DNA of 64,000 nt from Verrucomicrobiota bacterium (lineage in GTDB: Bacteria; Verrucomicrobiota; Verrucomicrobiia; Limisphaerales; BJHT01), in assembly GCA_014193395.1 (NCBI GenBank), contig BJHT01000003.1:1-64000 (forward strand), written 5' to 3'. Each line of letters starts with the position of its first letter. Position 1 is the stretch's first letter. The translations under genes were made by a program, and so were the position numbers. The notes under the pieces were generated by a model. It was not told the DNA's origin. It made no database searches and worked only from the letters and a program-made list of their open reading frames with translations. This document shows positions 56,760-63,971 of the stretch, piece after piece.

Positions 56760-57566
56760 ATGGAACACGTCCTACATATGGAACATAGGCCCACCCGGGA
56801 CCCGGCGGCGTCTCGCATCGAGGCGCCGGCGCTGGATCGCGGCTTGGCGGTCTTGGAGGCGCTGGACGCGAGGCCGGAAGGCATGAGTCTGTCGGAACTC
56901 AGCCGCACGATCGGCAGTCCGAAGAACTCGGTTTCGCGGTTGGTGCAGACTTTGACCGCGCGCGGCTACGTGGAGCGGGAGGAGGCGACGATGCTCATCC
57001 GGCTGACGGGGAAGCTGCTGCGCCTGGGCCAGCCGCGCGTGGGGCAGCACAGCCTGGTCGAGTGTGCGCTGGAGCCAATGCGGGCGCTGCGGGATGCAGT
57101 GGGAGAGACGGTGCAGCTTGGCATTCCGATCGGTGCCGAGGGAGTGATCATTGAGCAGGTCGAGAGCACGCAGGCGGTGCGCATTTGCGCGGAGATCGGT
57201 TTGCGCTTCCTCCTCCACAACAACGCGCCGGGCAAGGTGCTGCTGGCCTTCCAGCCTGCGAAGGGCTGCGAGCTGGCGATCCGGCGCTTGAAGCTAAAAC
57301 GCTTCACCAGCCGCACCATCACGGACAAGGGCGCGTTGCGGAAGGAATGTGAGCGCGTGATGAGGCTGGGCTACGGCACGGATTGGGGCGAGGCGGATGA
57401 AGGCATTCATTGCGTGGCTGCGCCGGTGTTTGATCGACCGGATCATCTGCTGGCGGTCGTTTGGGCCTCGGCGGTCGCCGGACGCATGCCGAAGAGTCGG
57501 TTTCCCAAGGTGGCGGTCGCGGTGATGAAGGCCGCGCGTGAGCTCGAAAGGAGGCTGCGGGCATGA
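56760..57566 (+). CDS. IclR family transcriptional regulator
   Basis: ALDRGLAVLEALDARPEGMSLSELSRTIGSPKNSVSRLVQTLTARGYVER HTH; effector domain DAVGETVQLGIPIGAEGVIIEQVES. Start refined to 56760. Confidence 0.9.
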   Translation: MEHVLHMEHRPTRDPAASRIEAPALDRGLAVLEALDARPEGMSLSELSRTIGSPKNSVSRLVQTLTARGYVEREEATMLIRLTGKLLRLGQPRVGQHSLVECALEPMRALRDAVGETVQLGIPIGAEGVIIEQVESTQAVRICAEIGLRFLLHNNAPGKVLLAFQPAKGCELAIRRLKLKRFTSRTITDKGALRKECERVMRLGYGTDWGEADEGIHCVAAPVFDRPDHLLAVVWASAVAGRMPKSRFPKVAVAVMKAARELERRLRA

Positions 57567-60388
57567 AGGCGACGCTTTGGCTCATGTTGGGGTTGGCCGG
57601 CCTCGCCAGCCCGCGGGCGACGGCGGAAGAGCCGTCTTTCGACCGCGTCGTTGCGCCTGTGCTTGCGGGACGGTGCCTTGATTGCCACTCGGGTCCGAAA
57701 CCGAAGGGCAAACTTGACCTCAGCCGGAAGGAGCAAGCACTGAAGCAGATCGTGGCCGGCGCGCCGGGCCGGAGCCGGCTCTGGCAGGTGGTGGAGGCGG
57801 ATGAGATGCCGCCCAAGCATCCGCTGCCGCAAAGTGAGAAGGCGATTCTGCGCGACTGGATCGCGAGTGGGGCGACGTGGGGACGAGATCCGATTGATCC
57901 TTTCCGTTACTCATCGAAGGCCCGCGCCGGATACGACTGGTGGTCGCTTCAGCCGCTGAAGGCGCCTGCTCCGCCCGAGACGCAGGGCGACAATTGGTCC
58001 CGGAATGAGATCGATCGATTTGTCTTCGCCGGGCTGGCCGCGAAAGGCTTTCGACCCTCGCCAGTGGCGGATGCGCGGACCCGGGTGCGCCGACTTTATT
58101 TCGACCTGCTGGGCTTGCCGGCACCAGTCGAGGTGATCGAGCGATTTTCCGCCGATCCGTCGGCGGGTGCGTGGGCGCGACTGGTTGACGAGCTGCTTGA
58201 GTCCAAACATTACGGCGAGCGTTGGGCAAGGCATTGGATGGATGTCGCCCGCTTTGGCGAGAGCGGCGGCTTCGAATACAACACGCCGAGGGCAAACGCC
58301 TGGCACTACCGCGACTGGCTCATTCGTTCGTTCAACAACGACCTCCCCTACGACCAGTTCGTGCGGATGCAGTTGGCGGGCGACATCCTCGCCCCCGGCT
58401 CGACCGAGGGCATGGCGGCGGTGGGCTTTCTCGTCGCGGGCGTCCACAACGAAGTGCTGGGGATAAATCCGAAAATGCGGATGGCCGGGCGGCAGGACGA
58501 ACTGGCGGAAATAGCTGGCACGGTGGGGCAGGCCTTCCTCGGGATGACGGTGCATTGCGCCCGCTGTCACGACCACAAGTTCGATCCGCTTTCGGCAAAG
58601 GAATACTACCAGTTCATCGCGGCGCTCGATGGCGTGAGGCATGGGGAGCGAACGCTGGGCAACAACGAGGAGACCAGCAAACTCCGCCGTCAGCGAAAAG
58701 AACTGGAGCGCAAACTGGTCGAGCTGGTCATCGCCCGCCAAGGCGAGCTGACGACCACGGCGAACATCCTCGAACTCCGCAATCCCATTGAGGCCAACCG
58801 TGCAGGCAAGACCTATCGCGTGTCGCTGCGGCTGGCACCGACCACCTGGGCCGCCGCTTCCCAAGGCACGGCCGAGCACGATGGGGTCGTCGTTCGCATC
58901 CTCCGGGCGTCGGACGGCGGGCAACTCGCTTCCCAGTTCTTTGAAGCGCGGGAGTGGGCCGATGGACGAAACGCCACCGTCTTCGTGCCCAAGGAGTTCA
59001 GCTTCACGGGCGATGGCTCCGGCCCGGTGCGTTTGCGGCTTGAGCCTTTCCCGCTCAATTCCCAGCGCTTCGGGGGAGCGGTCGATGATCTGGAGATTCG
59101 CGAGGGAGATCGCCAGGTTTTCGGTGAAGGCTTCAACGATTTGGAGCAGACTTCTCCGCCCGGAACGCAGGCCGATACCAAAGGCAAAGTCTATCACAGC
59201 GCCCGCAGCGCGCGGTGGAAGGCTTCCGGGCTGAATGCCATCCACGCGGTCGAATGGGCCGCGGGCAATCTGGCGCTCCAACTCTTCGGCGGGCAGCCGG
59301 GAGCAGTCGTTACGGCGGCGACGCCGGAAGAAAAGCGGCTCGAGGCCAAGATCAAAAACGTGGACCAACAGATCGGCTCCCACGCGGCGCGAATTTTCAC
59401 GGTCGTTTCCCAACAGCCCGGCCCCATGCGCCTCCACGCCCGGGGCGACGTGAGCCTGCAGGGCGAGGCCGTGCCCGCAGGTGGCCTGGGTGCGGTGCAG
59501 GGGCTTTCACCCGACTTTGCACTGCCGGTGGATGCCCCCGAGGGCGTGCGCCGCCGGAAGCTGGCCGAGTGGATCGCCTCGCGGGACAATCCGCTGCTCC
59601 ACCGCGTGGCGGTGAATCGCGTCTGGCACCATCATTTCGGGCAGGGCCTCGTGCTCTCGCCGAGTGACCTTGGCTTCAATGGCGGACAGCCGAGTCACCC
59701 GGGCGTGCTGGAATGGCTCGCGGTCCGCTTTCGCGAGGACGGGTATTCGTTGAAACGTCTGCATCGCCTGATCCTCACCTCGGCGACCTGGCAGCAGGAA
59801 TCGCGCAGCGAAAACGCAGCGGCCCGGGAAGGCGATGCGGGCAATCGCCTGCTCTGGCGGCAAAGTCCCCGGCGGATCGATGCGGAGACTTTTCGCGATA
59901 CCGTCCTCGCCGTTTCGGGCGCACTGAATCCGCAAATGTTCGGCCCCGGCTACCGGGACGTGCGCCTGGATGAAGTGGCACCAACGACCTATTACACGGC
60001 GATTGATCCGGTCGGGCTCGAGTTCAATCGCCGCACGCTTTATGCCTGGCAGGTGCGCGGGGAGCGCAGTGCCCTGCTGGAGACGCTGGACTGTCCCGAT
60101 CCCTCGGTGACCACGCCCGTTCGCCACACCACCATCACGCCGTCCCAAACACTGAGCCAGTGGAACCACCCGTTCATCCTGCGGATGGCGGACCATTTTG
60201 CCGAACGAGTGACCAAGGAGGCAGGCAAAGCCACGGCCGCCCAGGTAAGACTCGCGTGGCGTCTTGCCTTGGGCCGCGACCCGGCCCCCGCCGAACTCGC
60301 CGATGCCACGGCGCTGGTCGAGCGGCACGGATTGCCCGCTATTGCCCGCACCCTTTTCAACAGCAGTGAAATGATCTGGATCGACTGA
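57563..60388 (+). CDS. PSCyt1/DUF1549/DUF1553-type protein
   Basis: CLDCHSGPKPKGKLDLS and CARCHDHKFDPLS (two CXXCH motifs); HYGERWARHWMDVARFGESGGFEYNTPRANAWHYRDW. ATGA overlap with the IclR gene. Confidence 0.9.
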   Translation: MKATLWLMLGLAGLASPRATAEEPSFDRVVAPVLAGRCLDCHSGPKPKGKLDLSRKEQALKQIVAGAPGRSRLWQVVEADEMPPKHPLPQSEKAILRDWIASGATWGRDPIDPFRYSSKARAGYDWWSLQPLKAPAPPETQGDNWSRNEIDRFVFAGLAAKGFRPSPVADARTRVRRLYFDLLGLPAPVEVIERFSADPSAGAWARLVDELLESKHYGERWARHWMDVARFGESGGFEYNTPRANAWHYRDWLIRSFNNDLPYDQFVRMQLAGDILAPGSTEGMAAVGFLVAGVHNEVLGINPKMRMAGRQDELAEIAGTVGQAFLGMTVHCARCHDHKFDPLSAKEYYQFIAALDGVRHGERTLGNNEETSKLRRQRKELERKLVELVIARQGELTTTANILELRNPIEANRAGKTYRVSLRLAPTTWAAASQGTAEHDGVVVRILRASDGGQLASQFFEAREWADGRNATVFVPKEFSFTGDGSGPVRLRLEPFPLNSQRFGGAVDDLEIREGDRQVFGEGFNDLEQTSPPGTQADTKGKVYHSARSARWKASGLNAIHAVEWAAGNLALQLFGGQPGAVVTAATPEEKRLEAKIKNVDQQIGSHAARIFTVVSQQPGPMRLHARGDVSLQGEAVPAGGLGAVQGLSPDFALPVDAPEGVRRRKLAEWIASRDNPLLHRVAVNRVWHHHFGQGLVLSPSDLGFNGGQPSHPGVLEWLAVRFREDGYSLKRLHRLILTSATWQQESRSENAAAREGDAGNRLLWRQSPRRIDAETFRDTVLAVSGALNPQMFGPGYRDVRLDEVAPTTYYTAIDPVGLEFNRRTLYAWQVRGERSALLETLDCPDPSVTTPVRHTTITPSQTLSQWNHPFILRMADHFAERVTKEAGKATAAQVRLAWRLALGRDPAPAELADATALVERHGLPAIARTLFNSSEMIWID

Positions 60389-61809
60389 TGAACATTTCCC
60401 GCCGCCACTTTCTTGATTTCGCCACTGCCGGCCTTGGCGCCACCGCCGCGCTGCACCTGATGGGCCGCGAGGCGCTCGCTTCCTCCAGCACGGCCCGCGC
60501 TTCCTTTCCCAATCATCCACCGCGAGCGAAACGGGCCATCCACATCTGCCTGATGGGCGGACTCAGCCATGTGGACTCCTTCGATTACAAACCGCAACTC
60601 GCGCGCTTCCACGGCAAGGCACCGCCAGACTCGGTCAAGCCCGATACCTTCTTCGGCAGCGCCGGACTCATGCGGGCGAATGAATGGGAGTTCCGGCAGC
60701 GCGGCGAAAGCGGCTTGTGGGTTTCCGATCTCTTCCCGCACCTCGCCTCGGTGGCGGACGAACTTACCGTGATCCGCTCGATGCACTCCGAATCGGCAAA
60801 TCACACCCCGGCCAGCTTTCTCCAGAACACCGGCTTCCAGATGAACGGCTTCCCCGCGCTGGGAAGCTGGCTCTCCTACGGGCTGGGAAATCTCTCCGAC
60901 TCGCTGCCCACCTTCATCGTCCTGCCGGATGCCCGCAGCCTGCCCAACAACGGCGCAAGCAATTGGAGCAGCGGATTCCTCCCCGCCGAGCACCAGGGCG
61001 CGCTCTTCCGCGCCGGCGACCAGCCTGTTCGCAATCTTTTCGCGGACCGCAAAATCGCTCCGGCGACGGAGCGCGACGCCCGCATCCTCTTGGACAAAAT
61101 GAATCGTCACCATGCGGCCGAGCGAGCCGGTGAGGACCTGCTCACCGCCCGGCTGCGGGCCTACGAGATCGCCGCCCGGATGCAGACCTCCGTTCCTGAG
61201 GTGGTCAATTTTGCCAGCGAAGCCGAGCACATTTCCCGGCTCTACGGCCTCGATCAAAAACCAACCGCCGACTGCGGGCGGCGATGCCTGCTCGCACGGC
61301 GGCTCCTCGAACGCGGGGTCCGGTTCGTGCAAATTTATTCCGGCGGTGCCTTCGGCGGAAGCCCGCGCCACGGTTGGGACGGGCACGAGAACAACCACGA
61401 GAACCACACCCGCGAGGCAGGGCTCATTGATCGTCCGGTCGCCGGACTCATCAAGGATTTGCGCCAGCGCGGCATGTTGGACGACACGCTCATTCTTTTC
61501 ACCTCCGAGTTCGGTCGCACGCCCTTCACCCAGGCACCGGCAGGCAAAATCGGCCTGGGCCGCGACCACAATCCGGAGGGCTTCACCGTCTGGCTGGCCG
61601 GCGCCGGCCTGAAGAATGGCTTCGCCTATGGAGCCACCGACGACGTCGGCTGGAAGGCCGTGGAGAACCCGGTTTCATGGCCTGATTTCCACGCCACGGT
61701 CCTGCACCTGCTTGGGATCGATCACGAGCGGCTGACCTATTATCACAACGGCATCGAGCGCCGCCTAACCAATGTTCACGGCGAGGTTGTGAAGGATCTC
61801 CTCGCATGA
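60388..61809 (+). CDS. DUF1501 family protein with Tat-like signal
   Basis: MNISRRHFLDFATAGLGATAALHLMG; AKRAIHICLMGGLSHVDSFDYKPQL; TGATG overlap with upstream gene. Confidence 0.9.
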   Translation: MNISRRHFLDFATAGLGATAALHLMGREALASSSTARASFPNHPPRAKRAIHICLMGGLSHVDSFDYKPQLARFHGKAPPDSVKPDTFFGSAGLMRANEWEFRQRGESGLWVSDLFPHLASVADELTVIRSMHSESANHTPASFLQNTGFQMNGFPALGSWLSYGLGNLSDSLPTFIVLPDARSLPNNGASNWSSGFLPAEHQGALFRAGDQPVRNLFADRKIAPATERDARILLDKMNRHHAAERAGEDLLTARLRAYEIAARMQTSVPEVVNFASEAEHISRLYGLDQKPTADCGRRCLLARRLLERGVRFVQIYSGGAFGGSPRHGWDGHENNHENHTREAGLIDRPVAGLIKDLRQRGMLDDTLILFTSEFGRTPFTQAPAGKIGLGRDHNPEGFTVWLAGAGLKNGFAYGATDDVGWKAVENPVSWPDFHATVLHLLGIDHERLTYYHNGIERRLTNVHGEVVKDLLA

Positions 61810-61988: not shown

Positions 61989-62288
61989 AGGACTGAGGCG
62001 CGGTGGAGTTCTCGCGCTTCGTTTTGGTCCGGCGCCGTCGCCAGTTTCTGCGCGACTCGCCGCCGCGATTCCCGTCTTTGCAACCCCGGATCACTCCGCC
62101 ATTCTCGCGCCCATGCCGACGCAGGAACTCAATTCAACGCAGCCGGGGCGCGTAGCATACGACGGCGGCGGGCCTTTCAATCGCCGCAGTTCCGCTGGTC
62201 GCCCGTTCCTCGCGAAAAGCAAAAGTTCCCACACCAACCGCGGTCACCGCACCCGCCATCTGCCCGCCGACGCGGGCCGCGCCCGAGC

Positions 62289-63971
62289 ATGAAGGAAAAC
62301 CAGCAGTTCGAATGGAAGGAGACGTGGCGGGACGAACTCCTGCGCTGGGTCTGCGGCTTTGCGAACGCCGGCGGCGGCGCGCTTCACATCGGACGCAACG
62401 ACCGCGGCAAGGTCGTCGGGCTGCCGGATTCCGCGAAGCTGCTGGAGGAAATTCCCAACAAGATCCGCGACCTCCTCGGCATCCTCGTCGCCGTCAATGC
62501 CCGCGAGGAAAACGGCCTCCCCTGGCTGGAGATCGTCGTCGATCCCTATCCCCATCCGATCAGTTATCGCGGGCACTATTTTCAGCGCAGCGGCAGCACC
62601 AATCAGGAGTTGAAGGGCGCGGCGCTCGACCGCTTCCTGCTGCGCCGGCAGGGCCGCACCTGGGACGGAGTGCCGGTGCCGGGCGTCAAAATCTCACACC
62701 TCTCCACCGCAGCCATCCGCCAGTTTCGTGAACTGGCCCGCGCCAGCGGACGGCTCGACCCGGTGGACCTGCGCGCCTCGAAGGCCGCGCTCATCGAGAA
62801 GCTCCAGCTCACCGAGGGCGCCTATCTCAAGCGCGCCGCCGTGCTCCTCTTTCACGACGACCCCGAGAAATATGTCGCCGGCGCCTTCGTGAAAATCGGC
62901 TTCTTCCGCTCCGAATCCGAACTCGCCTACCACGACACCCTGCACGGCGATCTGTTTGCTCAGGCGGCCAAAACGATTGATCTCGTGCGGACCAAATACC
63001 TCAAGGCCGCCATCACCTATCAGGGCATCCACCGCATCGAACGCTACCCCGTGCCCGATGCCGCCCTGCGCGAGGCCATCCTCAACGCCCTCGTCCACCG
63101 CGACTACGCCGTGGGTGCGCCCGTGCAGATTCGCGTCTATGAGGACCGCCTGAAAATCTGGAACCCCGCCGTGCTCCCGGATGGCTGGACGCTGAAGAAC
63201 CTGCTCGGCACGCACGCGTCCGCACCCTACAACCCCGCGGTCGCCAACGTCTTCTTCCGCTCCGGCGAAATTGAAACCTGGGGCCGCGGCATCGAGCGCA
63301 TCTTCAAGACCTGCAAAGCCGCCGGTACGCCGCGCCCCCGCCTCCTGCTCGAACCCAACGGACTGTGGCTCGAATTCCCCTACGCGTTGGAATATCGGAA
63401 GGCAATGGCGGCGGCTGGCAAACAAGTCGCAGGTGAAGTCAAAGGGGAGGTTGGGAAGACCGCGCCAGCCACGGCACCAGTCACGGCACCAGTCGCAGGT
63501 CAAGTCGAGGCCCCAGTCGGGGACCCAGTCACGGCCCCTGTCACCGCGGAAGTCGCCGATGGAGACGCACAACGGCTAGAGTCAGGGGTAGAGTCAGGGG
63601 TAGAGTCAGGGGTAGAGTCAGGGGTAGAGTCAGGGGTAGAGTCAGGGGTAGAGTCAGGGGTAGAGTCAGGGGTAGAGTCAGGGGTAGAGTCAGGGGTAGA
63701 GTCAGGGGTAGAGTCAGGGGTAGAGTCAGGGGTAGAGTCGCCGATAGTTCTTCAGATACTTGGAATACTAAAAGACAGACCGCAGGCCAAAGCGGAAATC
63801 GCCAGCAGCCTTGGCAGGACCAAGCCATCCCGTTACCTGCACGAACTCATGGCAAAACTGATCCAGAGCAACCGAGTCGAATACACCCTCCCCGGCAAAC
63901 CCAACAGCCGCCTCCAAAAATACCGCCTCACCGCCCACGGCCGCGCGTGGTTCGCCCGCCACCCGCGTTGA
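62289..63971 (+). CDS. AlbA_2 (Schlafen-like) plus C-terminal ATPase-like regulator with tandem-repeat linker and terminal winged-helix-like region
   Basis: FEWKETWRDELLRWVCGFANAGGGALHIGRNDRGKVVGL (AlbA_2); REAILNALVHRDYAVGAPVQIRVYEDRLKIWNPAVLPDGW...NPAVANVFFRSGEIETWGRGIERIF (HATPase_c_4-like); SPIVLQILGILKDRPQAKAEIASSLGRTKPSRYLHELMAKLIQSNRVEYT (wHTH-like). Confidence 0.85.
   Translation: MKENQQFEWKETWRDELLRWVCGFANAGGGALHIGRNDRGKVVGLPDSAKLLEEIPNKIRDLLGILVAVNAREENGLPWLEIVVDPYPHPISYRGHYFQRSGSTNQELKGAALDRFLLRRQGRTWDGVPVPGVKISHLSTAAIRQFRELARASGRLDPVDLRASKAALIEKLQLTEGAYLKRAAVLLFHDDPEKYVAGAFVKIGFFRSESELAYHDTLHGDLFAQAAKTIDLVRTKYLKAAITYQGIHRIERYPVPDAALREAILNALVHRDYAVGAPVQIRVYEDRLKIWNPAVLPDGWTLKNLLGTHASAPYNPAVANVFFRSGEIETWGRGIERIFKTCKAAGTPRPRLLLEPNGLWLEFPYALEYRKAMAAAGKQVAGEVKGEVGKTAPATAPVTAPVAGQVEAPVGDPVTAPVTAEVADGDAQRLESGVESGVESGVESGVESGVESGVESGVESGVESGVESGVESGVESGVESGVESPIVLQILGILKDRPQAKAEIASSLGRTKPSRYLHELMAKLIQSNRVEYTLPGKPNSRLQKYRLTAHGRAWFARHPR
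63459..63554 (+). repeat. Degenerate 12-bp-periodic block encoding (T/x-A-P-V)-type tetrapeptides
   Basis: Eight in-register units: TAPA TAPV TAPV AGQV EAPV GDPV TAPV TAEV. Confidence 0.75.
63579..63734 (+). repeat. Perfect tandem repeat: 13 x 12-bp gagtcaggggta encoding (ESGV)13
   Basis: Direct count; followed by a degenerate 14th unit gagtcgccgata (63735-63746, ESPI). Confidence 0.98.

Follow-up and report, generated by a model that had tools for sequence, protein, structure and literature searches.

Why does a gene near the end of a 64,000-nucleotide stretch of Verrucomicrobiota DNA (the whole stretch is called the window here) encode the same four residues 13 times over, in identical DNA, just before a C-terminal winged helix? 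An earlier note, made from the letters alone, had described a 12-bp in-frame unit in 13 perfect copies with one diverged copy behind them, and had proposed that the array changes the length of a linker in steps of four residues and could be an analogue, not on/off, switch. The array is there as described. Direct reading gives gagtcaggggta 13 times and then gagtcgccgata; the copies are in frame within the open reading frame, where (ESGV)13 forms residues 431-482; and Tandem Repeats Finder places the strongest tandem array of the window at this site (63577-63739, period 12, 13.6 copies, 100% matches, score 326). The array is not a product of chance, because none of 300 shuffled tails reached its score. 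The doubled ESGV-coding unit has no second occurrence in the 7.9 Mb assembly. We propose, with a probability of about 0.72, that the array is a flexible tether whose length varies in steps and which belongs to a swappable DNA-binding module.

Features of the gene and its repeat arrays, in window coordinates
Feature	Position	Strand	Evidence
Open reading frame, 560 aa	62289..63971	+	Pfam, AlphaFold2, Foldseek
SLFN_AlbA_2/Schlafen domain, aa 3-108	62289..62612	+	Pfam, 37.9 bits (cut-off 25.3)
HATPase_c_4 (GHKL-type ATPase), aa 276-355	63114..63356	+	Pfam, 71.3 bits (cut-off 26)
Linker, about aa 382-484	between HATPase_c_4 and winged helix		
Degenerate, older 12-bp array (APVT/APVG-type), of the same type as the sister species' linker	63465..63544	+	Tandem Repeats Finder, comparison with sister
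Stretch lacking DNA homology to the sister gene; covers the ESGV array and the greater part of the head	63510..63883	+	DNA comparison
13 perfect copies of GAGTCAGGGGTA, (ESGV)13	63579..63734	+	sequence read directly, Tandem Repeats Finder
Diverged 14th unit GAGTCGCCGATA (ESPI), running into helix 1 of the winged helix	63735..63746	+	sequence, predicted model
Fic-like_C winged helix, aa 487-548	63747..63932	+	Pfam, 31 bits (cut-off 27); Foldseek

Rfam has no match in the 3.5 kb around the gene. The minus strand is also open across the array (63541-63828, an (LPLT)n frame of 95 aa), and nothing marks that frame as a gene.

Pfam, AlphaFold2 and Foldseek agree on the order AlbA_2, ATPase, linker, winged helix that had been read from the translation. 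The HATPase_c_4 domain is the only copy in the whole assembly. The best Foldseek match is PDB 3lmm, followed by Schlafen 11/12/14, histidine-kinase ATP-binding domains and MarR/ArsR-type winged helices, and the winged-helix head may bind DNA. In the AlphaFold2 model, built with 37 aligned proteins, the body is confident and most of the head scores above 90, and the linker (about residues 391-480) has a pLDDT of 31-45 and no helix. In this single prediction, the ESGV linker is disordered. Because the tether is predicted to be disordered, one four-residue step should act only weakly in any analogue switch of the kind that had been proposed. The acidic residues of the AlbA_2 domain are highly conserved (E3 and E8 in 38 of 38 aligned proteins, D38 in 35 of 38). 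SLFN13 has an acidic triad of E205, E210 and D248 (PMC5862951); the spacing of five between E3 and E8 is the same as that of E205 and E210, and D38 resembles D248. Since they resemble that triad in spacing and type, the AlbA_2 domain of the window protein may possibly have RNase activity.

We asked whether relatives carry such arrays. For the first set, 242 matches confirmed in genome contigs yielded 80 relatives, which span Verrucomicrobiota, Bacteroidota, Pseudomonadota, Planctomycetota, Campylobacterota and Clostridia. Among its 75 complete tails (window included), judged against shuffles, 62 have a significant linker tandem repeat, with a period of four residues in 56, eight in 4 and seven in 2; the other 13 have none. 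A second, more distant set, which overlaps the first slightly, gave a period of four in 30 tails, a period of eight in one, and 24 tails without a repeat. This periodicity is concentrated at the C-terminus: 66 of 75 C-terminal tandem matches have a 12-nt period, compared with 25 of the 133 in the remainder of these loci (0.8 Mb; Fisher p 2e-23).

The units themselves are diverse. VTDP, VTPP, VTPQ, VTAQ, PESQ, PESR, TSGK, TTQK, TSVK, VGEK, LGEK, WGEK, TVPK, TVEK and others all occur in the C-termini. The statement that related regulators carry tetrapeptide repeats of other sequence is borne out in both sets. Some homologues have no repeat at this position; in one genus of the same class (L191-L209), 18 of 19 complete tails lack one. 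Because repeat-less homologues exist in this genus and in the first set, a tetrapeptide linker array is not essential. Short homologues on plasmids of Pseudomonas, Klebsiella, Yersinia and Aeromonas stop before any repeat tail. Neither a relative at the protein level nor a match to the doubled unit was found in viral contigs.

Within this family, no other array of the first set is as long as the ESGV array (13.5 units; the runner-up has 9.0), and one member of the second set, L174, also reaches 13 units as (SSEK)4(TSEK)9. The high nucleotide identity of the ESGV copies points to recent expansion, which the earlier note had proposed beside active homogenisation. Across the family, 17 of 61 arrays are also nucleotide-perfect, as detected by residue matches, which favours high identity; the window is therefore not special in its perfection. 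Steps of whole units are seen between near relatives: GGTGAAAAGTGG is present three, five and three times between conserved flanks in L098, L099 and L104, in keeping with the length changes of four residues that had been foreseen. Divergence shows no significant polarity along the arrays (11 versus 7 arrays, p 0.48). ESGV-like tblastn matches in L025 (a polyketide synthase) and in L035 and L039 (frames that look Rpn-like) proved to be unrelated proteins with other four-residue repeats. The L025 frame has about ten DGVE repeats, so 12-bp arrays occur in unrelated proteins too.

The linker unit goes with the head. Proteins with similar units tend to have similar winged helices (r 0.50), and the correlation hardly changes once body similarity is removed (0.486, Mantel p 0.001; null maximum for this partial correlation 0.106). 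The relation of unit similarity to body similarity is weak, at 0.099 with head similarity removed, and head and body similarity correlate at only 0.175. Clustering of the heads splits the VT-, VGEK/LGEK/WGEK-, SGKT-, TSVK-, PES- and TVEK-types. Common descent of adjacent sequence, and not functional matching, could account for this link.

Array and head also appear to move together. The relatives L049 and L051 have a body similarity of 0.98, yet their linkers are VTDP and PESR and their heads differ. In the pairs L049/L053 and L063/L064, a non-homologous linker-head segment lies between a conserved body and downstream DNA that is likewise conserved for about 3 kb. Two proteins of one genus, L174 and L210, have a common body and a common start of two SSEK units, followed by TSEK and TPVK arrays, respectively, and by different heads. 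L166 and L190 each contain two array and winged-helix units in tandem, apparently duplicated as units. A tetrapeptide array and winged-helix head of this kind are also present in four Fic proteins (L030, L132, L143 and L155). In L133 the linker is layered, with VAPE, AQSG, ESRL and VTDP stretches in succession, and gives the impression of repeated head replacement. Such exchange does not depend on arrays, because members of the L191-L209 genus swap heads between bodies that are 98-99% identical and nearly without linker repeats.

The window gene appears to bear traces of one such event. The linker of its sister species (L011/L044, same genus) is VT-type. DNA homology to the sister gene extends over 62287-63509 (79%), ends inside the degenerate VT array, and returns at 63884-63957 (89%) in a conserved KPNSRLQKYRLT block. 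The segment between these boundaries is probably a replaced module, as judged by sequence comparison. The best-matching heads for the window protein are PES/ESR-types (L048, L188 and L124). Six of the seven nearest bodies with complete tails in the first set have VT-type linkers, so the VT-type is probably ancestral in this lineage. The V/L phase is unbroken from residue 398 to residue 482, across the VT to ES junction. The tie between motif and head, the swapping of modules and the fossil VT array upstream had all been left out of the earlier note.

These observations suggest the following course. The array would form a disordered tether, with a body of Schlafen fold and GHKL ATPase on one side and a winged-helix head that binds DNA on the other. 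Together with its head, the array would make up one module, exchanged by recombination. In the lineage of the window, an ES-type head with its ES-type unit would have taken the place of a VT-type head, if we have the direction right, leaving upstream a remnant of the earlier VT array that shares the four-residue phase of the new one. Growth of the ESGV unit to 13 copies would have come next, perhaps by slippage or by unequal recombination, in four-residue steps that cause no frameshift.

The genes of relatives often lie among restriction-modification genes. Immediate neighbours include HsdS domains upstream (11 of 54), HSDR_N downstream (13 of 56) and other restriction-modification methylases; several homologues overlap their neighbours by 4 or 19 nt at the gene ends, and a Synechococcus example has the order hsdS, homologue, hsdR. 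An Azotobacter plasmid homologue with ESRL repeats (L124) is part of a BREX locus, where brxC and pglX flank it. The window gene has no adjoining hsdS or hsdR and is not in a restriction-modification operon. Directly downstream, just past the end of the window, is a short AAA_33/zeta-toxin-like P-loop ORF (L040:9048-9434). Upstream, at 57563-61809, are PSCyt1/PSCyt2/PSD1 and DUF1501 genes, a pair unrelated to the array.

Does the array need to be anything more than a spacer? Any flexible sequence might suffice, with the period of four reflecting only the origin of the first unit and the mechanics of slippage. Units as chemically different as VTPQ, PESQ, SGKT, WGEK and ESGV at the same place would fit this, as would the many members that have no repeat. 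However, the period of four recurs over many unit types, and in-frame repeats elsewhere in the same loci are of mixed period; we consider a neutral tether a genuine possibility, at somewhat worse than even odds. A different role for the period would be that of a joint: a common 12-bp period lets heads swap in frame and in phase. The L174/L210 junction does fall inside an array, and in-phase composite linkers are present in the window gene, L049, L053 and L083, besides the layered linker of L133. On the other hand, one genus exchanges heads without repeats, and some swap breakpoints lie 24-137 bp upstream of the array, so that we find a recombination joint conceivable and on the whole doubtful.

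Repeat number could instead act as a code, altering activity, DNA spacing or partner matching within a species, by analogy with Rpn and EcoR124I HsdS. Both precedents use a 12-bp/4-residue unit (PMC10327210), near relatives differ by whole units (L098, L099 and L104), and the family is often found in restriction-modification loci. Against this, a comparison of E. coli strains using two homologues gave no match, and the window linker is predicted to be disordered, whereas Rpn repeats lengthen a helix. Moreover, internal starts precede 6 of 61 arrays, no excess over the 13% background, which gives no sign of an Rpn-like short antitoxin. We think a length-coded switch or self-recognition unlikely. 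Might the copy number simply be inflated by assembly? The perfect repeat is 163 bp long in a fragmented assembly of 730 contigs, and the exact count of 13 could err if this was assembled from short reads. Nevertheless, the array is in frame and ends in a diverged unit, and arrays of this kind recur in many independent genomes, in L174 likewise with 13 units; an artefact of this kind is very improbable.

We favour the flexible tether that travels with its DNA-binding head. A more far-reaching version is one we offer tentatively and would not bet on: defence-linked Schlafen/ATPase and Fic proteins may draw on a common exchangeable kit of heads, each with its own tetrapeptide unit, in which the 12-bp period is kept for in-frame exchange and the number of copies adjusts how far the head can reach.

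How does the window protein compare with known systems? AlbA_2 - HATPase_c_4 - winged-helix proteins such as DIP2311 (PDB 3lmm), often annotated as ATP-dependent DNA helicase RecG-like or ATP-binding proteins, have the same domain order and fold; the window protein differs in its long perfect tetrapeptide array. The papers searched contained no description of linker repeats in these proteins. The ESGV array is a recent-looking expansion, a variant of known four-residue intragenic repeats, and the main interest is the family-wide rule. One odd array becomes a testable rule, in which linker unit, head type and head exchange are coupled in widespread and often restriction-linked proteins. Varying 12-bp/4-residue units also join this family to Rpn and HsdS, which makes the question 'why four residues' directly testable.

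Fic proteins with Fic-like_C (PF21247) have the same winged helix and the same kind of tetrapeptide linker as the window protein, on a Fic-domain body instead of AlbA_2 - HATPase_c_4. Rpn nucleases are alike in having a variable number of 12-bp/4-residue units before a helical HTH-like domain and in tending to cluster with defence genes; their repeat number varies among strains, and one added repeat abolishes the matching of long and short forms (PMC10327210). In Rpn, however, the repeats belong to an intragenic antitoxin and lengthen a helix there. We rejected both an Rpn-like helical repeat, given the low-confidence, helix-free linker of the model, and an Rpn-like intragenic toxin-antitoxin: the window has no in-frame start with a Shine-Dalgarno-like sequence upstream of the array, and such starts are not above background in the family. 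One TAEL unit and one base pair of DNA spacer separate EcoR124I from EcoR124II (PMC10327210). The likeness to HsdS is that, in a DNA-binding protein, a tetrapeptide of varying copy number lies between modules, and hsdS itself neighbours the gene in several homologue operons. In HsdS two or three copies of TAEL set the DNA spacer; the window array has 13 copies.
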